This document shows, in pieces, positions 3,658 through 34,607 of a DNA stretch of 37,764 nucleotides. The translations under genes and the position numbers were made by a program. This DNA comes from Candidatus Magasanikiibacteriota bacterium (lineage in GTDB: Bacteria; Patescibacteriota; Patescibacteriia; Magasanikbacterales; UBA922). Numbering within the stretch: the stretch's first letter is position 1; every line of letters begins with the position of its first letter. Under the pieces are notes generated by a model. That model saw nothing but the letters and a program-made list of their open reading frames with translations, searched no databases and was not told the origin of the DNA. Location: assembly GCA_016207245.1 (NCBI GenBank), contig JACQQA010000001.1, positions 1 to 37,764 on the forward strand. Direction: 5' to 3'.

Positions 3658-4563
3658 CTAATTATATCCCGTCAACACAACCACCCTATCCCTCCCGGAT
3701 AGGTCTTTTTTTATTTCCACCGAGGCGTTGGGAAGATATTTTTTGATCAAACGCGTTATTCTGTTGGCTTGTCTTGGGTTGATTTCAAAAAAAGCCGTAA
3801 GCCATAAGCCATAAGCCGTAAAATCTTTCATTTGAGACAGCAATTTTTCGTAAAGCTCCAGTCCGGTTTTGCCGGCGACGAGAGCATTTTTCGGTTCGCG
3901 CTGAATAGACGGCGAATTTTTGTGTTGTTTATTTGTGAGGTATGGAAGGTTGGCGGTGATAACGAGTGTTGAATCTGCCTCACCGGCAGACAGGTTGTTA
4001 AATTGTTGAATTGTTAAATTGTCAACGAGCGGTTGGAGAAGACTGCCGTGGAGGAATTTGATCTTAACGCCGTGCTTTTTCGCATTTAATTCTGCAATTC
4101 GCAACGCCGACTTTGAAATATCAATGGCATAAATTTTCAGTGATGGGGTGGTGGGGTGATGAAGTGATGCGGCGATAGCGATGGGAATACAGCCGGAACC
4201 AGTTCCCACATCGATCAGTGCTATCTTTTTGCCTCCTGTTGTCTGCATTCTGCATTCTGACAAAACACTCTCCACTAACACTTCCGTCTCCGGTCTCGGC
4301 ACTAACACGCTTCTATTCACCATAAAATCCAATCCAAAAAATTCTTTATGTTTTGTCAAGTAAGCAAGGGGGACACCCCGGCCGCGTTTTTCAAACAATT
4401 CTGTGATTAAGTGATGTTGTGATGCGGTGATCAATTGATCGGGATGCGCTAACACAAACTCTCTTGTCTTTTTCAAAACATGAGCGACAATCAATTCAGC
4501 GTCCAGCAAATCAATTCGCTCGCGCGCTTGTTGAAGAAGTTGTTTGATAGTAGTCTGGGGCAT
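3658..4563 (-). CDS. prmC: peptide chain release factor N5-glutamine methyltransferase
   Basis: 301 aa from ATG 4563; a TTG three codons earlier is possible. It methylates the Gln of the GGQ motif of release factors using SAM. Visible: N-terminal helical domain with LDAELIVAHVL, RPETE at 90-94, SAM motif DVGTGSG at 118-124, and NLPY at 205-208 in place of the usual NPPY. It overlaps the end of the glycosyltransferase by 53 bases and belongs to the prfA-glycosyltransferase-prmC run, so enzyme and substrate are made together. Several short-word repeats have been absorbed into the frame: ATTCTGCATTCTGC (SECRMQ), GTTAAATTGTTGAATTG (LTIQQFNNL, residues 183-191) and the AAGCCATAAGCC word near 3795. 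Confidence 0.9.
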   Translation of the reverse strand: MPQTTIKQLLQQARERIDLLDAELIVAHVLKKTREFVLAHPDQLITASQHHLITELFEKRGRGVPLAYLTKHKEFFGLDFMVNRSVLVPRPETEVLVESVLSECRMQTTGGKKIALIDVGTGSGCIPIAIAASLHHPTTPSLKIYAIDISKSALRIAELNAKKHGVKIKFLHGSLLQPLVDNLTIQQFNNLSAGEADSTLVITANLPYLTNKQHKNSPSIQREPKNALVAGKTGLELYEKLLSQMKDFTAYGLWLTAFFEINPRQANRITRLIKKYLPNASVEIKKDLSGRDRVVVLTGYN

Positions 4564-6031
4564 CAAATTCAAACATTGTTATTCCAATATGGCCGACGGC
4601 GCGGACTCTTTTCTTAAATTTCCAACCATGGTTGACAAACCAGGTCGTCCCTTTGCCTTCAAAGCTATCATATTGCAAAAAGAAAATTTTATCGCGGTTT
4701 TTTGTGTGTTCCGCCATCCAAGCGTCATATTCTCCATTGGAAGAAAGCAAAGACTGCCAGTTATAGCGCACGATTCTTTCTTCCAAACTTAAATTATCCT
4801 CCAGCGGATACACCCCCTCCACCGGAACTTGCCCGCGGTAATATTTTTTTATCACCAATTCTTCGTTGAACGGAATCACCAAGATAGCACTTTTGGGAAC
4901 TTCATTTTTTTCTATGTATTTAGTAATCGTATACCAAGAAAAAATCGGACCGGTGGCGATAGTGAGCGTTGAAGGTATAAAAATAACAAGAAAAAGCGCG
5001 GTAATGGCCAGCCGGGCGGTTTTATCAGTAATCTGATCAAATGTCCAAGCGATAAGCAGAGCGAAACCGGGCAAAGAAAAAACAAAATATTTAGTTACAT
5101 ATTGTCCGAGAAACGCGCCAAGCGCGGCCGGAACAAAACTCCATAACATTAAAATAAAAAGCAAATTTTTATTTTTCTGTCCTTGTTGCGGAAAAACTTT
5201 GAGCGCGTAAAAAATTATTCCCAGCAAAATAATCGCGAACAGAGCGAGAACGAAATCCGGAACGCCGGTGTTGACAAAGAGCGTGGTTAGATTGGTAAAA
5301 ATATTTGACGAGTTAGTGTCATAAGTAAAAAACCAGCCGCGAAGACTGCCGGCGTTTAACTTCTGCAAGAACGATGGGGTAAACCACAGACTCCAAATCA
5401 GCAAAGAAAAACACTGGGTTAATAAAAACTTTTTGCGCGACGCGCGATCAGCGGTTTTAAAATATACTAGCGTCAAAACTTGAATAATGATTACGGTTAA
5501 AGCGGTAAGATGAGAATAAAGTAGGGCGACTTGGGTTAAAAAAAACAATGGCCAAGTCCAACGGCCGATTTTTTTCTCAACAAATATGTTTATGAACCAA
5601 TAAAAAGACAGCGCTGTCAAAAGCGTAAACAAAGCGTAAGTTCTGGTTTCGGTGCTGACAAAAAGATGTATTCCCGACAAAGAAATAATTAAAGAAGAAA
5701 CAATTGCCGCGCGGCGGGAAATCCATTTTTGGCCGAGATAATACACGAACGCGATGGTTATTAAACCAAAAATCAACGAAGGAATCCTCACTGTCATCTC
5801 GCCCTGTCCCAAAAGATTCATCCACCCGCGCAAAACCAGATTATACAAAAACGGATTGGTTTCCAACAGCCAGTATTTAATCGCCTGCCCCCACGGCAGA
5901 AGGCTGTAATGCACGCTGAACATTTCATCAAACCACCAAGTGCCGCGAACAAACAGAAGATTGATACGCAGAGCGGCGGCAGTAGCAAGCACAATAAATA
6001 ATGGGTAGTGTTTTTTGAACCAAAATTTCAT
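4511..6031 (-). CDS. membrane glycosyltransferase, PMT_2/ArnT-like (GT-C fold)
   Basis: 506 aa, with about ten hydrophobic segments in the first 370 residues and a soluble C-terminal domain. WWFDE at 32-36 in the first extracytoplasmic loop matches the Asp-Glu catalytic motif of dolichyl/undecaprenyl-phosphate sugar transferases, and TNPFLYNLVLRGW follows as in PMT_2 proteins. It probably moves a sugar from a lipid-phosphate carrier to a protein or lipid outside the membrane; the substrates are not predictable. It lies between prfA and prmC, and its start codon is five bases from the end of the palindromic element at 6036-6238. Confidence 0.8.
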   Translation of the reverse strand: MKFWFKKHYPLFIVLATAAALRINLLFVRGTWWFDEMFSVHYSLLPWGQAIKYWLLETNPFLYNLVLRGWMNLLGQGEMTVRIPSLIFGLITIAFVYYLGQKWISRRAAIVSSLIISLSGIHLFVSTETRTYALFTLLTALSFYWFINIFVEKKIGRWTWPLFFLTQVALLYSHLTALTVIIIQVLTLVYFKTADRASRKKFLLTQCFSLLIWSLWFTPSFLQKLNAGSLRGWFFTYDTNSSNIFTNLTTLFVNTGVPDFVLALFAIILLGIIFYALKVFPQQGQKNKNLLFILMLWSFVPAALGAFLGQYVTKYFVFSLPGFALLIAWTFDQITDKTARLAITALFLVIFIPSTLTIATGPIFSWYTITKYIEKNEVPKSAILVIPFNEELVIKKYYRGQVPVEGVYPLEDNLSLEERIVRYNWQSLLSSNGEYDAWMAEHTKNRDKIFFLQYDSFEGKGTTWFVNHGWKFKKRVRAVGHIGITMFEFDAPDYYQTTSSTSARAN

Positions 6032-6035
6032 AGCG

Positions 6036-6238
6036 TTAATTGTAAGAATTAGTCGTGTTGTTTATACTTTTATGAGCTTTATGTGGCAAATTAGTCATTG
6101 CGAGGACCCCGCCATGGCGGGGGACGAAGCAATCCAGCAATCGCATGGGAACGCGATAACGGTGTGGATTGCTTCGCCTGCGAAGGCTCGCAATGACTTT
6201 AAGAAGTATAAACAACGCTGTCGATTCTTACACATTAA
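6036..6238. mobile_element. MITE-like palindromic element, copy A
   Basis: About 203 bp with terminal inverted repeats: TTAAT-TGTAAGAAT (6036-6049) with ATTCTTACA-ATTAA (6224-6238), and GTTGTTTATACTT (6057-6069) with AAGTATAAACAAC (6204-6216). Inside is an imperfect palindrome from GTCATTGCGAGG (6094) to CTCGCAATGAC (6197). It exactly fills the gap between the prfA stop and the glycosyltransferase start and has no coding capacity. Related sequence lies at 14701-14849 and 20772-20856. Confidence 0.75.
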
Positions 6239-7802: not shown

Positions 7803-7901
7803 ATGTCAGAAAAATTGCCCCGCACGGAACAAATGTCGCGTCGTAAATTGGAAAAAAGGAGACTGACGTGGAATTTGAAAACGCCAAACAAGAGGTTCTG
7901 A
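7803..7901 (+). CDS. possible 32-residue basic peptide
   Basis: ATG 7803 to TGA 7899-7901, rich in Lys and Arg (MSEKLPRTEQMSRRKLEKRR...). AAGG lies about 10 bases upstream. The stop codon is formed by the first bases of the 30-bp inverted repeat 7900-7974. It could be a real small basic protein or chance; I recognise no family. Confidence 0.25.
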   Translation: MSEKLPRTEQMSRRKLEKRRLTWNLKTPNKRF

Positions 7902-7974
7902 CCCGGACCCCGTATTCTAGACACAAAGGTCGAAGATATTGTACCCTTTGTGTCTAGAATACGGGGTCCGGGTC
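7900..7974. repeat. perfect 30-bp inverted repeat
   Basis: Arms 7900-7929 and 7945-7974 are perfect reverse complements with a 15-base loop. The arm reads GACCCGGACCCCGTATTC then TAGACACAAAGG. No T-run follows, so it is not a classical terminator; it resembles REP palindromes associated with Y1 transposases. Confidence 0.85.
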
Positions 7975-7977
7975 ACT

Positions 7978-9293: not shown

Positions 9294-11288
9294 ATGGTCT
9301 CTTCCTTGTTTTCTTATTTAAAAAATATAATTGTTAAAATTATTCGACGTTGCCGCGCCAGGCCGATAAAATCAATTCGGCATGATTTTAGATTACTGCA
9401 AAGGGCAAAGGGTAGATTTTGGCCGAAATTTTCGCAACTATGGCACGTGCGCAGATTATTTTCTCCAACGGAAAAAAATATTATCAGAGTCAGTTTTTTA
9501 ATTTTGCTGTTAAGTTTGGTTTGGGCCGGCTGGCGTTTTGCCGACTCGCATTTGATTCAAAGCCCGGTCAACGGCGGACGCTATGTGGAAGCGGTGATCG
9601 GATCGCCAAAATCAATCAACCCGATTTTTGCCAGCACCAATGATGTTGACATGGATATCGCGCGCCTGGTGTTTTCCGGCCTGATGCGCTATGACGCCAA
9701 GCATCGTTTAGTGCCGGATTTGGCGGTTAAATATGATTTAAGCGCGGACAAAAAAATCTACACTTTTGAACTGCGCCGCGATGCGCTCTGGCATGATGGA
9801 AGCCCATTCACCGCCAAAGATGTGCAATTTACCATTGAAGCAATTCAAAACCCGGCGGTCAATAGTCCGCTGTTCGTGAGTTTTCAGGGAGTTGATGTTT
9901 CAGCGATTGATGATTACACTGTCCGCTTTGTTTTGCCTGAGCCGTTCAATCAATTTTTATCAATTTTGACCGTCGGCATTTTGCCGGAGCATGCTTGGTT
10001 TGATGTGCCGCCGGAACAAATGCGTTTTTCAAATCTAAATTTACAGCCGGTCGGCACTGGGCCGTTCATGTTTAAAAAATTAGCCAAAGACGATACCGGA
10101 TATATTTACAGCTATGAACTTGAACGCTTTGATAAATACTTCCGCCAGCCGCCGTTTTTGAATGAATTTGTCTTTCAATTTTACTCGGAATATGAAGGTT
10201 CAGCCGGCGCGATTGAAGCGTTTCGGGGACAAAAAGTTGACGGCTTGAATTTTGTCCCGCATACTTTGCGCGACAAGGTGGAACGCAAGCATGCGGTGCT
10301 GCGCACGCCCCAGTTGCCGCAATACACCGCACTGTTTTTCAACCAAGACAGCCAGCTGATTTTAAAAGAAAAGTCAGTACGTCTCGCTTTGGCTAAAGCG
10401 ATTGACAAAGAAAAAATTTTACAGCAAGTTTTGAAAAACGAAGGCAGTGCGATTGACGGCCCGATTCTCCCGGGATTTATCGGCTACGAGGCGACTGCCG
10501 GAAAAATCGTTCATTCCATAGAAGAAGCGAATAAATTGTTGGATGAAAAATGGACGCGCGTCACTTCTGAAAGTTACCGCGAAAAAAGAAAAGTTGAATT
10601 GTGGAAAATTTGGGAAGACAGCCAAAAGACAGCTTCGTCTACTCCGACCGGGGCGGCCACTTCCACACCTGACGAAACCGCCAAACAAAAAGCGGAAGCG
10701 GACATCAACAACCAGTTGGAAAGCGAATTATCAACTCCCCAAACATTTTACCGGCAGGATAAGCAAGGAAAAATTTTGGAATTAAATCTAGTGACGGTAA
10801 AAAACGAAGAGTACCGCAAAGCGGCCGAGATTATCGCCGGCTTGTGGCAGGAAATCGGAGTTAAAACGAATTTAAAATTTTATGAAGCCAAAGAATTCAG
10901 CCGCGAAGTTTTGAAGCCGCGCAATTATGATATTTTATTGTACGGAGAAATTGTCGGCGATGATCCGGACCCATTCCCCTTCTGGCATTCCAGCCAGATT
11001 GATTATCCGGGATTAAACTTGTCAAAATATTTAAACCGCAATGCCGATGCTTTGATTGAAAAAGCCCGCACTGCCGCGAATGAAGACGAACGAGCGGAAT
11101 TATATAAAAAATTCCAAGAGTTGTTGGCAACAGAATTGCCGGCAATATTCCTTTACATGCCAACTTACACTTACGCAACCACTGACCGCATAAACGGGTT
11201 GGGGGTGGAACGTATTTCCCGCCCGGCCGACCGTTTTGCCGACGTGACCGGATGGTATATAAAAACAAACGGACAATGGCAGTGGTAA
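9294..11288 (+). CDS. membrane-anchored ABC solute-binding protein, family 5 (dipeptide/oligopeptide type)
   Basis: 664 aa. A basic cytoplasmic tail of about 60 residues and one membrane helix (about 63-82) precede a family 5 (DppA/OppA-like) binding domain: INPIFASTNDVDMDIARLVFSGL, LRRDALWHDGSPFTAKDV, GTGPF, and near the C-terminus PIFLYMPTYTYA. It is anchored outside the membrane rather than lipid-attached (no lipobox Cys). An insert around 455-480 is Thr/Pro/Ala-rich. No permease or ATPase genes are next to it, so its transporter partner is unknown. Such proteins next to secG are a recurring arrangement in Parcubacteria-like genomes, as I recall it. Confidence 0.85.
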   Translation: MVSSLFSYLKNIIVKIIRRCRARPIKSIRHDFRLLQRAKGRFWPKFSQLWHVRRLFSPTEKNIIRVSFLILLLSLVWAGWRFADSHLIQSPVNGGRYVEAVIGSPKSINPIFASTNDVDMDIARLVFSGLMRYDAKHRLVPDLAVKYDLSADKKIYTFELRRDALWHDGSPFTAKDVQFTIEAIQNPAVNSPLFVSFQGVDVSAIDDYTVRFVLPEPFNQFLSILTVGILPEHAWFDVPPEQMRFSNLNLQPVGTGPFMFKKLAKDDTGYIYSYELERFDKYFRQPPFLNEFVFQFYSEYEGSAGAIEAFRGQKVDGLNFVPHTLRDKVERKHAVLRTPQLPQYTALFFNQDSQLILKEKSVRLALAKAIDKEKILQQVLKNEGSAIDGPILPGFIGYEATAGKIVHSIEEANKLLDEKWTRVTSESYREKRKVELWKIWEDSQKTASSTPTGAATSTPDETAKQKAEADINNQLESELSTPQTFYRQDKQGKILELNLVTVKNEEYRKAAEIIAGLWQEIGVKTNLKFYEAKEFSREVLKPRNYDILLYGEIVGDDPDPFPFWHSSQIDYPGLNLSKYLNRNADALIEKARTAANEDERAELYKKFQELLATELPAIFLYMPTYTYATTDRINGLGVERISRPADRFADVTGWYIKTNGQWQW

Positions 11289-11299
11289 AATTTTAATCC

Positions 11300-11388
11300 A
11301 GCCGAGGTAGGTAATGATTTTTGCAGCGACAACTGTTTGAGCGAAAATACGCGAGTTTTGGCGCAAAAAAATCATTACCTACAAGGCT
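11300..11388. repeat. fold-back element 1, upstream of tRNA-Leu
   Basis: Arms GTAGGTAATGATTTTT (11307-11322) and AAAAATCATTACCTAC (11367-11382) are exact complements; AGCC/GGCT extends the stem. The core 11323-11366 reads G.AGCGA..ACTGT.TGA...CGCGAG..AGTT..CGC and matches the core of the second element at 11539-11584, although the arms are unrelated. Confidence 0.75.
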
Positions 11389-11397
11389 GAGGAATAT

Positions 11398-11481
11398 GCC
11401 CGGATGGCGGAACTGGTAGACGCGCTGGCTTCAGGAGCCAGTCCCCGCAAGGGGGTGGGAGTTCAAATCTCCCTTCGGGCA
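11398..11481 (+). tRNA. tRNA-Leu (CAG)
   Basis: 84 nt, class II. Acceptor GCCCGGA pairs with TTCGGGC, anticodon stem CTGGC/GCCAG with loop TTCAGGA gives anticodon CAG (codon CUG), a variable arm CCCCGC-AAG-GGGG is present and the T-loop is TTCAAAT. CCA is not encoded. Confidence 0.95.
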
Positions 11482-11515
11482 CGATTTTTCTCCCTAAACA
11501 AGGTTTCTATCAAGC

Positions 11516-11607
11516 AAGTAGAAAATATTATTATTTTTGAAGCGAGGACTGTGTGACGAGCTCGCGCGAGGAGTTCCGCAGCGAAAAAATAATAATATTT
11601 TCTACTT
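11516..11607. repeat. fold-back element 2, downstream of tRNA-Leu
   Basis: Perfect 23-bp arms, 11516-11538 and 11585-11607 (AAGTAGAAAATATTATT..., AT-rich), around a GC-rich core, 11539-11584. The core is homologous to that of element 1. It ends 25 bases before the rnj start codon, so it forms the 5' leader of that gene. Confidence 0.8.
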
Positions 11608-11632: not shown

Positions 11633-13435
11633 ATGTTTGCAGAAAAAACTTCAGCGCCGCGATTGCGGCGCAAATTCAGCTCGCGTTCCCGCTTCCCCGG
11701 CCGGAATCAGCCGCCGCGCAATACCCGGCCATTCCAAACCGGAATCGCTATCACTGAAAAACCGGAAGATAACGCCGGATTGCGCGTCATCCCTTTGGGC
11801 GGGTGCGAAGAGGTGGGACGCAACATGACTGTCTTTGAATATGGCGGCGATATTATTATTTTAGATATGGGCCTGCAATTCCCGGAAGAAGACATGCCGG
11901 GTATTGACTATATCATCCCAAACACAAAATATCTTGTCGGCAAAGAAAAAAAAATCCGCGGCGTAATTTTCAGCCATGGCCACCTGGACCACATCGGCGC
12001 CGCGCCGATTCTTTTGGAAAAACTCGGCAATCCGACGATTATCGGCCGTGATTTGACTTTGGCACTGATTAAAAACAAGCAGGAAGATTACAAACAGCAC
12101 AGCGCCAAAAATTTAAAAACTATCACCGTAAAAAATTTGCGCGACACTTTGCGCTTGGGCAAATTCACGATTAAATTTTTCCAAATTGAACACTCAATCA
12201 TGGACGCGATGGGGATAATTATTGAAACCCCGGCCGGAACCGTGATTCACCCGGGCGACTGGACGTTGGAACACGATGCCAAAGGAAATTCTCTGCTGGA
12301 TTACCGCCAACTGTCTAAATTGCCGCGGCCGACCGTACTGATGCTGGAAAGTTTGGGAGCGTTGAATACTCGCCGTTCAGCTGACTATGAAACAATGTAT
12401 AAAAACCTGCTGGAGATTTTGCAAAAAGCCGAAGGCCGGGTGATTATCGGCACCTTTTCATCGCAAGTTGAGCGCATCAAATGGGTAATTGATGCCGCGG
12501 ACCAGTTGGGTAAAAAAGTCGCGTTGGACGGCTACAGCATGAAAATGAATATTGAAATCGCCAAAGAGCTGGGTTATATAAAAATCCGCAAAGGCGTTTT
12601 GATTGATGTCAAAGACATTGACAAATATCATGACCGGCAAGTTGTGGTTATCTGCACCGGCGCGCAGGGCGAAGAAAACGCGGTGCTGGCGCGCATTGTG
12701 AACAAACAACATCGCGTAGTTAAACTGCGAAAAACCGACACGGTGATTTTCTCTTCTTCAATCATTCCGGGCAATGAACGCACGATTCAGCGGCTTAAAG
12801 ATAATATCTATCGCCAGGCTGATCACGTGATTCACGGTGAAATAATGGATGTGCATGTTTCCGGCCACGCCACGCGCGCCGATATTGTTGAAATGATTGA
12901 ACAAATTCAGCCGACATATTTCATTCCGGTTTACGCCAATCATTACTTCTTGAAAGAGGGAAGAAGTTTGGCGATTGAGCGCGGGTTTCCCAAAGAAAAT
13001 ATTTTCGTTCCGGACAACGGTTCAATCATTGAAATCACCCCGAAGTCGGCGCGAATTCTAGAAAAAAAAGCGCCGAGCGATTATGTTTTTGTCGACGGCC
13101 TGGGGGTGAGCGACACGCAAAATATTGTTTTGCGCGACCGCCAAGTTCTCGCGGCTGATGGCATGGTAGTGGTGATTGTGACGGTTGACACCAAATCCGG
13201 AAAATTGGTGCAAAATCCGGACATCATTTCCCGCGGTTTCATTTTTCTGAAAGAAAACCGCGAGCTGATTGAAGACTTGCGGCACAAAGTTAAAAAAATG
13301 GTAATTGAATCCGCCCCGCTTAACTGGACTGACACCAATCAAATCCGAAATGACATCCGTGACAAAGTCGGGCAGTTTTTGTATAGCAAGACGGAAAAAA
13401 GACCGATGATACTCCCTGTTGTGATAGAAGTTTGA
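11633..13435 (+). CDS. rnj: ribonuclease J
   Basis: 600 aa. Metallo-beta-lactamase plus beta-CASP nuclease with 5'-exo and endo activity, used in mRNA decay and rRNA maturation. The zinc-binding motif HGHLDH is at 115-120, and HPGDWTLEHD, TFSSQVERI, SGHATRAD and the C-terminal RNase J domain are all present. Residues 1-47 are a basic Arg/Pro-rich tail not found in the classical enzyme, probably RNA-binding. The ATG follows an AT-rich leader after fold-back element 2 without a clear Shine-Dalgarno sequence. Confidence 0.95.
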   Translation: MFAEKTSAPRLRRKFSSRSRFPGRNQPPRNTRPFQTGIAITEKPEDNAGLRVIPLGGCEEVGRNMTVFEYGGDIIILDMGLQFPEEDMPGIDYIIPNTKYLVGKEKKIRGVIFSHGHLDHIGAAPILLEKLGNPTIIGRDLTLALIKNKQEDYKQHSAKNLKTITVKNLRDTLRLGKFTIKFFQIEHSIMDAMGIIIETPAGTVIHPGDWTLEHDAKGNSLLDYRQLSKLPRPTVLMLESLGALNTRRSADYETMYKNLLEILQKAEGRVIIGTFSSQVERIKWVIDAADQLGKKVALDGYSMKMNIEIAKELGYIKIRKGVLIDVKDIDKYHDRQVVVICTGAQGEENAVLARIVNKQHRVVKLRKTDTVIFSSSIIPGNERTIQRLKDNIYRQADHVIHGEIMDVHVSGHATRADIVEMIEQIQPTYFIPVYANHYFLKEGRSLAIERGFPKENIFVPDNGSIIEITPKSARILEKKAPSDYVFVDGLGVSDTQNIVLRDRQVLAADGMVVVIVTVDTKSGKLVQNPDIISRGFIFLKENRELIEDLRHKVKKMVIESAPLNWTDTNQIRNDIRDKVGQFLYSKTEKRPMILPVVIEV

Positions 13436-14700: not shown

Positions 14701-14849
14701 CTGCCGGCAGGCAGGAAGCAATCCATACCGTTATTACGTTCTCGCGCGATTGCTGGATTGCTTCGTCCTCCGCCATGGCGGGGTCCTCGCAATGACAGAT
14801 ACGCCCTTTAACAGTTTAAGAAAATATAAACAACGCTGGTAAATCTTAC
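14701..14849. mobile_element. MITE-like palindromic element, partial copy B
   Basis: Shares with copy A the GCAATCC / GGATTGCTTCG / CCGCCATGGCGGGG / CTCGCAATGAC core and the right end TATAAACAACGCTG...TCTTACA. The left terminal repeat is not recognisable and is replaced by CCTGCCGGCAGGCAGG. Like copy A, it ends a few bases from a start codon (gmk). Confidence 0.65.
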
Positions 14850-20562: not shown

Positions 20563-21292
20563 ACTCTATTGAAATGACTTTCCGCTCTTTCGTGGTCGCA
20601 GTTTCAAAACTCAATTCAGTCGCGCAAAGCGCAATTTCTCCATCTTTATATTTAGTTTTACTGCCATATTTAACATCGCCGACAATCGAATGTCCGATGT
20701 GCGCCAACTGCGCCCGGATTTGATGCGATCGGCCGGTTTTAAGATTCACCCTTAATAGGGTGGCACCACTTGTCATTGCGAGCGACCGAAGGGAGCGTGG
20801 CAATCCAGTGTCGATTGGCGACTGGATTGCTTCGTCGCTCCGCTCCTCGCAATGACTTTCCACCACCTCATAATCCAACTCCGCGCGCAATGCCTCATCA
20901 ACCGGTTCATCAAACACCTCCACAAAATTTTTCTTCTCATCTTTTTTTAAATAATTCACCAATGTGCCTTTTTCATTTTTATCCTGAGCGAAGCCGAAGG
21001 AACCTTCAACGACCGCGTGGTAAATTTTTTCTACTGTGCGATTTCTGATTTGCTCCGACAACCTTGACGCGCCTTTGCTGGTTTTGGCAAACAAAACAAT
21101 ACCAGACACCGGCCGGTCTAATCGATGAAGCAGACCCAAAAATACATTACCGGGTTTTTTATATTTTTCCTTCAAATATTTTTTCACCTCATCCATTAGA
21201 CAGACATCTCCAGTCTCATCACCTTGTACCAAAATACCGGCCGGTTTAAATACCACGATTAGATGATTATCCTCATACAAAACTTTTATCAT
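20543..21292 (-). CDS. RluA/RluD-family pseudouridine synthase carrying two repeat insertions
   Basis: 249 aa from ATG 21292, fixed by GAGGTGG just upstream and an ATGA overlap with the preceding gene. HRLDRPVSG at 56-64 holds the catalytic Asp59; GRSHQIRAQL is the second motif. Two repeats are read through in frame: residues 99-105 (FGFAQDK, from a CCTGAGCGAAGCCGAAGG palindrome) and about 145-176 (SHCEERSDEAIQ...SLRSLAMTSG, from an 85-bp copy of the CATTGCGAG palindrome). Without them the protein would align smoothly with the family. Confidence 0.85.
   Translation of the reverse strand: MIKVLYEDNHLIVVFKPAGILVQGDETGDVCLMDEVKKYLKEKYKKPGNVFLGLLHRLDRPVSGIVLFAKTSKGASRLSEQIRNRTVEKIYHAVVEGSFGFAQDKNEKGTLVNYLKKDEKKNFVEVFDEPVDEALRAELDYEVVESHCEERSDEAIQSPIDTGLPRSLRSLAMTSGATLLRVNLKTGRSHQIRAQLAHIGHSIVGDVKYGSKTKYKDGEIALCATELSFETATTKERKVISIEYDPKNS
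20772..20856. repeat. 85-bp CATTGCGAG palindrome inside the synthase gene (copy C)
   Basis: Begins GTCATTGCGAG and ends CTCGCAATGAC, with CAATCCAG/CTGGATTG pairing in the middle. Same core as elements at 6094-6197 and 14724-14798. It is translated as part of the pseudouridine synthase. Confidence 0.8.
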
Positions 21293-30358: not shown

Positions 30359-31044
30359 CCTGTTAGGGACATAGACAAGCGCTTAAATTCTCCTGTCGTT
30401 TTGAGCCCCGACAGGGACGACCGATAGTAGCCAGGGGCTTTAGCCCCTGGAACAATAACCCACAAATATCCGAAGTCCCGTAGGGACGGCACATCGCTCA
30501 AAACAAATATTTCAAATTAAAATCAATATTGTTTCTTTTTAATAACTCCAGATATTCTTCTTCGAAACTCATTCTTTTATGATGTTCTTCTTGGTTATCA
30601 ATATATTTTCGAATAATACCGACCTGCGACTTGCTAACCGTAAACGCGCCGTAACCTTCTTGCCAAGAAAATATATTCAAATCCAAAAAATTTTCGTGTA
30701 TCCACTTTGATGAATTGCCTTTTATTAGTTGGACGGCTTTTGATACAGATATATCAGGGTTCAACGAAAGCAGCGTATGAATGTGGTCGCTAGTCCCGCC
30801 TGATTTTATTGTTTTAAAATTGTTTTTGTCGGCTATTCCGGATATGTATCTAAATAGGTGGCTTCTCAAATCTTTTGACAACAATCTTTTTCTTTCTTTT
30901 GTACTAAAAACAACGTGAAATAATAAATTTGAAAATGTGTTTGGCATATTTGTGCCGTCCCTACGGGACTACGATTTAAATGCGAATCTTTTTTTTCCAG
31001 GGGCTAAAGCCCCTGGCTACTATCGGGCGTCCCTAACGGGACTG
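30359..31044. mobile_element. IS200-type element within layered REP palindromes
   Basis: A Y1 transposase gene lies between mirror-image repeats. From outside in: CCTGTTAGGGAC (30359) with GTCCCTAACGGG (31029); CGATAGTAGCCAGGGGC... (30422-30450) with its complement (30997-31025), each containing the palindrome CCAGGGGC-TTTA-GCCCCTGG; and AGTCCCGTAGGGACGGCACA (30474-30493) with its complement (30950-30969). The layered hairpins are typical of REP-associated Y1 transposases. Confidence 0.8.
30498..30947 (-). CDS. tnpA: IS200/REP-associated Y1 transposase
   Basis: 149 aa. The HUH metal site is HIH at 55-57 (SDHIHTLLSL) and the nucleophile is probably Tyr115 (IIRKYIDNQEEHHK). Such enzymes cut and rejoin single-stranded DNA at hairpins. 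Length and motifs are complete, so it may be active. Surrounded by REP palindromes that are its likely substrates. Confidence 0.92.
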   Translation of the reverse strand: MPNTFSNLLFHVVFSTKERKRLLSKDLRSHLFRYISGIADKNNFKTIKSGGTSDHIHTLLSLNPDISVSKAVQLIKGNSSKWIHENFLDLNIFSWQEGYGAFTVSKSQVGIIRKYIDNQEEHHKRMSFEEEYLELLKRNNIDFNLKYLF

Positions 31045-34516: not shown

Positions 34517-34607
34517 AGAATGCAGAATACAGATAACAGAATGTATTGAATGCGAATGTCTTTTCTGATATATTAATGTGTGTTATGTTATCTGTATTCT
34601 GTATTCT
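34517..34607. repeat. inverted repeat of the CAGAATACAGATAACAG word, upstream of xth
   Basis: Arms 34517-34538 and 34586-34607 (22 bases, one or two differences), 47 bases apart. The arm sequence is the same word as in the inverted repeat before trpS (13497-13587). It ends seven bases before the exonuclease III start codon. Confidence 0.75.

Follow-up and report, generated by a model that had tools for sequence, protein, structure and literature searches.

A dispersed family of hairpin elements in Patescibacteriia with a conserved core and arms apparently of mixed origin

The window analysed here, a stretch of 37,764 nucleotides from a Candidatus Magasanikiibacteriota bacterium, is contig C4 of a 12-contig, 687-kb draft genome (G000). 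It contains two fold-back elements on either side of a tRNA-Leu gene: e1 is located between the gene of a solute-binding protein and the tRNA, and e2 between the tRNA and the gene of ribonuclease J. A preliminary description had placed both elements around the tRNA and had given their perfect arms as 16 bp and 23 bp long, and this was confirmed by an inverted-repeat search; the pattern that it had noticed in the two cores was found as well, with AGCGANNACTGTNTGA occurring without mismatch in the window only at the cores of e1 and e2. The features of the region are the following.

9294-11288, plus strand: gene of an extracellular solute-binding protein, family 5, upstream of e1 (Pfam PF00496, E 7.4e-62)
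11300-11388, plus strand: element e1, type B core, a fold-back matched by the covariance models R1 and R2
11300-11303 and 11385-11388: short outer helix of e1, AGCC with GGCT, recognised by eye
11307-11322 and 11367-11382: arms of e1, 16 bp, perfect, with a 44-nt spacer (inverted-repeat search)
11323-11366, plus strand: core of e1, GCAGCGACAACTGTTTGAGCG...CGCGAGTTTTGGCGCAA (alignment A1; pair counts on alignment A8)
11398-11482, plus strand: tRNA-Leu (CAG), context between e1 and e2 and outside both
11516-11607, plus strand: element e2, type A core, 25 nt upstream of the ribonuclease J start codon
11516-11538 and 11585-11607: arms of e2, 23 bp, perfect, with a 46-nt spacer (inverted-repeat search)
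11539-11584, plus strand: core of e2, GAAGCGAGGACTGTGTGACGAG...GCGAGGAGTTCCGCAGCGA (alignments A1 and A8)
11633-13435, plus strand: gene of ribonuclease J, downstream of e2 (Pfam PF22505 and PF17770)

Folding of both elements gave z values of about -6 against dinucleotide shuffles, none of 200 shuffles being equally stable. The e2 element is found at the same site in the two congeneric genomes, G001 (L062) and G002 (L058), with identical 23-bp arms, so that the arms at the rnj site are unchanged over three species. Its conserved position upstream of RNase J makes e2 a candidate cis-regulatory hairpin.

A DNA similarity search retrieved a third copy, e3, from the same genome (G000:C5:149681-149769), upstream of smpB. 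The covariance model R1, built from e1, e2 and e3, identified 6 copies in G000 and 4 each in G001 and G002, where a fifth row in G002 was the reverse-strand echo of another copy; such echoes are excluded from all counts. R1 matched 30 of 144 relatives (E up to 0.05), with 32 matches in G032. A broader model, R2, obtained from 38 copies, matched 38 of 333 genomes of the class (E up to 1e-4) in a patchy distribution, with copy numbers that are lower bounds, as 14 first-look candidates per genome were scored; nine genomes were rescored with 150 candidates each. The searches for the core in the genome and its relatives, as proposed in the preliminary description, thus revealed, in bacteria with small genomes, a dispersed family with differing, internally perfect arms. 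The figures on stems and strands given below refer to the 126 elements that fall within the fetched stretches, a subset of all matches.

The family core is roughly 45-60 nt long, GCGAGGACTGTnTGAGC...GCGAGTTCCGC, ending in a T-tract/A-tract, and three subtypes were distinguished by eye. Type A, GAAGCGAGGACTGTGTGA..GAGTTCCGCAGC, includes e2; type B, GCCGAA-arm-..GCGACAACTGTTTGAGC..GCGAGTTTTGGCGC..-arm-GAGGC, comprises e1, e3 and most of the G032 copies; type C, GCGAGGATGTGTTCGAG..CGAGCCCCGCAGC, belongs to the genus g178. The type B copies of G032 have longer outer ends in common, AGTGAGTTATTAGCAATTCT ... GAAACTCGCTGTGAGTTC (L090 and L081), so that this subfamily is a larger element of perhaps 150-170 bp. 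Most elements lie in short gaps right behind stop codons.

At the gathering score, the Rfam covariance models gave no match to the elements, only tRNA and sub-threshold microRNA models being recovered, and no description of the hairpin family was found in open-licence PMC papers, a search that leaves room for one elsewhere. The exact core pattern occurred in 18 stretches of genome contigs, of which four were read (L012, L013, L015 and L020): three look like chance matches, the exception being L015 from Methylotenera, in which a similar core adjoins a repeat and long arms are lacking. Two matches in viral contigs, both read, look like chance too. Among plasmids, 31 records were returned at E up to 10, and none spans 80% of the 48-base query.

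The arms pair far better within an element than between elements. The mean ungapped stem is 22.8 bp, and the 126 elements contain 2773 Watson-Crick pairs, 51 G-T pairs, 17 A-C mismatches and 30 other mismatches; these totals include five stems (L101, L102, L046, L150 and L159) that the ungapped finder called short, probably because of bulges. When the inner 6 bp are set aside, 2044 of 2115 positions (96.6%) pair within the element, a figure that the stem finder maximises, though stems of about 23 bp are still not due to chance; between elements of one genome the corresponding value is 34.9%, G032 excluded. Indeed, a single genome can hold near-identical cores with unrelated arms. In alignment A8 (61 sequences), 89.4% of the cells are paired versus 58.7% after shuffling, the covariation score is 0.756 versus 0.170 shuffled and at most 0.137 with the structure slid, and double changes are found at 16 of 16 arm pairs; as the alignment was fitted to the structure, these figures lean towards it. 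A conserved G-U pair of the core (46 of the 61 sequences) was dropped as evidence on the strand, since a one-base bulge explains it equally well.

For much of the family these values bear out the earlier claim that the arms have nothing in common, which was too strong for the window itself: when the e1 and e2 arms are aligned in register, their innermost 16 bp agree at 10 of 16 positions, the ATTTTT beside the core is common to both, and the e2 arm, GAAAATATTATTATTTTT, occurs also at two other loci, L054 and L059. The presence of many copies with the same arm, which the preliminary description had named as contrary evidence, is a feature of one subfamily, since 19 of the 24 G032 copies examined carry one and the same arm; together with the arm common to e2, L054 and L059 this limits the claim, without extending to the whole family. 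Likewise, terminal inverted repeats common to several copies were seen in G032 (19 of 24) and partly in e1 and e3, and not in most type A copies.

Orthologous sites are occupied by a copy in some genomes and empty in others, and the rnj site is the only one, among the genus sites compared, that is common to all three species. At the e1 site, the upstream stop codon almost abuts the tRNA in both G001 and G002, while G000 has about 107 bp extra, and neither arm was found in these two empty sites. For L061 of G002, the left arm, TGGCCGTTGGTATTAT, has its counterpart in TGGCTGTTGATATTAT at the empty site of G000, where the inverted copy is missing. A weaker, A/T-rich case is L055 of G000, between rpsG and fusA, whose left arm, CGTGATTTTTAT, is similar to the CGTGTTTTTTAT that follows the stop codon at the empty site of G001. 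The first bases of the L054 arm are the upstream gene's stop codon. The flanks of the empty sites of L059 (rplR-rpsE), L060, L064 and L065 gave no clear match to either arm, and a counterpart of L056 was looked for in the congeners and not found (the names rpsG and rplR come from Pfam matches, fusA and rpsE from inspection by eye). Outside the genus, L165 of G258 lies between gatC and gatA, and the empty site of G356 has two bases between stop and start, most of the arm being absent there. Thus, the empty sites examined (e1 in G001 and G002; L055, L061, L059 and L054 in congeners; L165 in G356) hold at most one arm, and sites with both arms already in place, which the preliminary description had set against its own proposal, were not encountered among them. 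No target-site duplication was established outside a possible repeat at L093. In the surroundings of L064 of G001, a tandem array of GAGGCTTAC units lies downstream of the element (about 4400-4500), and the site that L064 holds in G001 is occupied in G002 by a palindromic repeat similar to a group found at 6093-6198 and elsewhere in the window.

The genus g178 (G222, G258 and G356) has many sites in common, with a flank identity of about 70-85%, and at three of them the arm holds the last codons and the stop codon of the upstream gene, as follows.

L142 (G222), L168 (G258) and L192 (G356): end of ATP synthase beta in the arm, EDVAA-stop, EEVSG-stop and, in G356, EDVSA-stop
L149 and L166: end of iPGM in the arm, ..EMTGKPLI-stop, with TGKPLI-stop in G222 and G258
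L158, L164 and L189: end of a glycosyltransferase in the arm, GGEGKKETD-stop, GGEEKKPE-stop and GGEQEKQ-stop

These coding ends are conserved at the protein level (EMTGKPLI-stop, GGIE..-stop), and in each species the opposite arm reproduces the local sequence of that species in inverted form, with a few mismatches; the exception is iPGM of G356, a copy with a decayed second arm, and the L159 arms of G356 no longer pair well. A single site may have different core subtypes with arms that remain local, as in L189 versus L158/L164. The core at the glycosyltransferase site is of type C in G222 and of type A in G258 and G356. A further copy, L093 of G023 (4806-4871), lies in frame within an exonuclease III-like gene, KDTTIA-[..]-IAVINGLG; the left arm belongs to the coding sequence, and its reverse complement is nearly matched by the outer right arm, GATATTG, with the alternative reading that a short duplicated ATAGCT/ATTGCT represents a possible target-site duplication.

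At several places, then, the arms are the end of a gene and its backwards copy, a pattern that is foreign to ordinary jumping DNA. The suggestion that the target is copied in inverted form is therefore supported for a part of the family, by L061, more weakly by L055 and, from the reading frame, by L093, and by the three coding sites of g178; it finds no clear support at L165, where most of the arm is absent from the empty site, nor in the window copies, given that neither e1 arm is present in the empty sites and that the e2 arm recurs elsewhere.

The elements are also biased with respect to the strand. Measured along the element strand, the GC skew is below zero in 100 of 126 elements (87 of 102 without G032; G032 alone, 13 of 24, has no bias), and full rescans placed all copies on one strand in the main contig of G222 (16/16), in G356 (10/10) and in G351:C2 (8/8). 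The two window copies have a weak positive skew and do not fit this trend. The 24 elements of G032, being mostly near-identical, were left out of the wobble test and of the neighbour-gene count. In the remaining elements G-T wobbles on the element strand outnumber A-C mismatches by 43 to 13 (p 4e-5 by pair), or by 29 to 8 when counted by element, orthologous copies not being independent; the count with G032 included is 51 to 17. Since G-T exceeds A-C on the element strand, the fold of this strand seems to be the one that matters. The same wobble bias favours the earlier suggestion that selection rebuilds the stem, though it does not separate selection from copying.

The wobble-tolerant element strand is antisense to most neighbouring genes. 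Around the 102 non-G032 elements, the nearest ORF that ends close to the element and has at least 200 aa is antisense in 31 cases, 10 of them ending inside the arm, and sense in 13, one ending inside the arm. Replication strand and gene strand are largely confounded, antisense orientation and negative skew coinciding in most copies. Copies that are co-directional with the ORFs and still have a negative skew (L064, two copies of G222, one of G351 and one of G356) hint at replication as the cause of the strand bias, with the reservation that some of the ORF calls may be spurious.

The window also encodes a protein that was considered as a possible mover of the elements.

30498-30947, minus strand: gene of an IS200-like Y1 transposase (Pfam PF01797)

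This gene is flanked by GTGCCGTCCCTACGGG and CCAGGGGCTAAAGCCCCTGG, which are unrelated to the hairpin core. IS200-like Y1 genes were detected in 14 of 22 element-bearing and in 3 of 18 element-free genomes, and none was found in G032, G222, G351 and other genomes with many copies. As the association is incomplete and also confounded, the element-free genomes tested being mostly close kin of one family, the Y1 transposase was rejected as the mover. An Rfam match to Acido-Lenti-1 (30997-31043) falls on one of the repeats that flank the Y1 gene, which suggests that Acido-Lenti-1 may be, at least in the window, a repeat of such a transposase. Other repeats of the window include the palindromic ones at 6093-6198, 14715-14764 and 20772-20856, two of them with GTCATTGCGAG and all with a theme of GAAGCAATCC or similar to GGATTGC; a 31-bp perfect inverted repeat with a 15-nt spacer at 7899-7975, unrelated to the hairpin family; and a 16-bp perfect inverted repeat with a 47-nt A/T-rich spacer at 34523-34601, without the shared core.

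Judging from the sequences, the arms appear to be of mixed origin, carried in some subfamilies and locally made in others, since those of G032 and e2 recur, e1 arrived with both, and those of the three coding sites of g178 are local. The account that we propose, and to which we give about even chances of being right, is that of a non-autonomous hairpin element whose arms are extended and re-perfected by template switching, while selection for the folding of one strand preserves them. The core would be inserted mostly in the short gaps after stop codons, perhaps mobilised in trans by an enzyme, and the long arms would be only partly the element's own. During replication, template switching at the foldback could place on one side an inverted copy of what lies on the other, in many cases the last part of the upstream gene; mismatches arising later in the stem might be corrected by the same process, leading to a locus-specific perfect stem. 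Template switching fits because it makes a reverse-complement copy beside a hairpin and re-perfects its stem. Selection on the fold of the element strand would help to keep the stem and would explain the wobble bias. We hold only tentatively the stronger version, in which the spread itself writes the inverted copy of the target: the core would insert just downstream of a stop codon, on one of the replication strands, and the gene end would be reverse-copied to the far side in the same or a coupled event. If insertion does write the copy, the swapped core subtypes at L189, L158 and L164 would represent repeated insertions at one spot, and copying as part of insertion would be an unfamiliar route for a mobile element. 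The origin of long perfect stems, and their persistence in a perfect state, is an open question for the evolution of RNAs and genomes, and on the order of a hundred stems built round one core, some with one arm pinned by coding constraint, make copying versus selection directly testable.

Other explanations have to be weighed against the proposed one. An ordinary MITE-like element carrying its own arms, which drift while selection on the fold restores the lost pairs with no need for host DNA to be copied, would account for the constant arms of G032, for the arm common to e2, L054 and L059, for the arrival of e1 with both arms and, outside G032, for the excess of G-T over A-C, as expected if pairing of the element strand is selected. 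We consider it doubtful as a general explanation, because host codons and stop codons, conserved at the protein level, lie in arms whose opposite arm matches in each species, because near-identical cores have unrelated arms in one genome, and because the L061 arm is already present in the empty site. A retained functional element, either a cis-acting or antisense RNA or a single-stranded DNA structure, acting after stop codons and rarely moving, is rather improbable. The preservation of the g178 sites at such flank identities, the positions of e2 upstream of RNase J in three species and of e3 upstream of smpB, the strong covariation in A8 and the one-strand wobble bias are all consistent with it; the patchy occurrence in 38 of 333 genomes, the sites of the own genus, mostly not in common, and the lack of an Rfam match argue against it, and the antisense position of the wobble-tolerant strand relative to most neighbours speaks against a role in the mRNA.

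The differences of the arms from locus to locus and their position right behind stop codons, where terminators lie, could also indicate that the core inserts into the centre of pre-existing hairpins or terminators, both arms being older than the insertion; the inspected empty sites, with at most one arm, disfavour this reading, and we regard it as very improbable. We give equally little credence to intrinsic terminators that are alike by chance or convergence. Hairpins in intergenic gaps would be expected in that case, and a T-run does follow the stem in L039 (the same place as L023), the G056 copy; this is an exception, however, to the general lack of a T-tract in the flanks, which were read by eye. 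Moreover, the conserved core sits in the loop, many copies lie within operons directly ahead of the next gene, and L093 is in frame inside a gene.

Several known systems resemble the hairpin family in part. REPINs keep their outer inverted repeats while the inside varies, and are mobilised by REP-associated Y1 (IS200-like) transposases. Like REPs and REPINs, the hairpin elements are short, non-autonomous and intergenic, can fold as a single strand and are dispersed in one genome; however, they keep the inside and vary the arms, the repeats around the window's Y1 gene are different ones, and several genomes with many copies lack Y1 genes. In MITEs the terminal repeats are the conserved, carried part. 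The hairpin elements are similar to them in being non-autonomous, in having inverted repeats and in their presence or absence at orthologous sites, and the G032 subfamily behaves in this way; in much of the family, in contrast, the arms are locus-specific and can hold host codons, with no clear target duplication. Rickettsia palindromic elements are dispersed palindromes that can sit in frame inside genes, as L093 does in the exonuclease III-like gene; the likeness is drawn from their description, and almost all copies of the hairpin family are intergenic. The attC sites of integrons are used as a folded single strand in a strand-specific manner, with conserved boxes at the outside of the stem and a variable loop. 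Compared by description, the hairpin family has a similar folded, strand-specific character with the arrangement reversed, conserved inside and with a variable stem. IS200/IS605 elements are reported to transpose in single-stranded form (PMC6006769), which the strand bias of the hairpin family relative to replication would fit. A parallel to the locally made arms is quasipalindrome correction, or template switching, in which, according to PMC8794818, a single event either writes a reverse-complement copy next to a hairpin or turns an imperfect stem into a perfect one. Multi-base paired changes from one event would be the common feature (PMC8794818, PMC8604942, PMC7202029); template switching is known as a mutation process acting on existing structures, whereas the hairpin elements are a dispersed family whose arms would be rebuilt at each locus.
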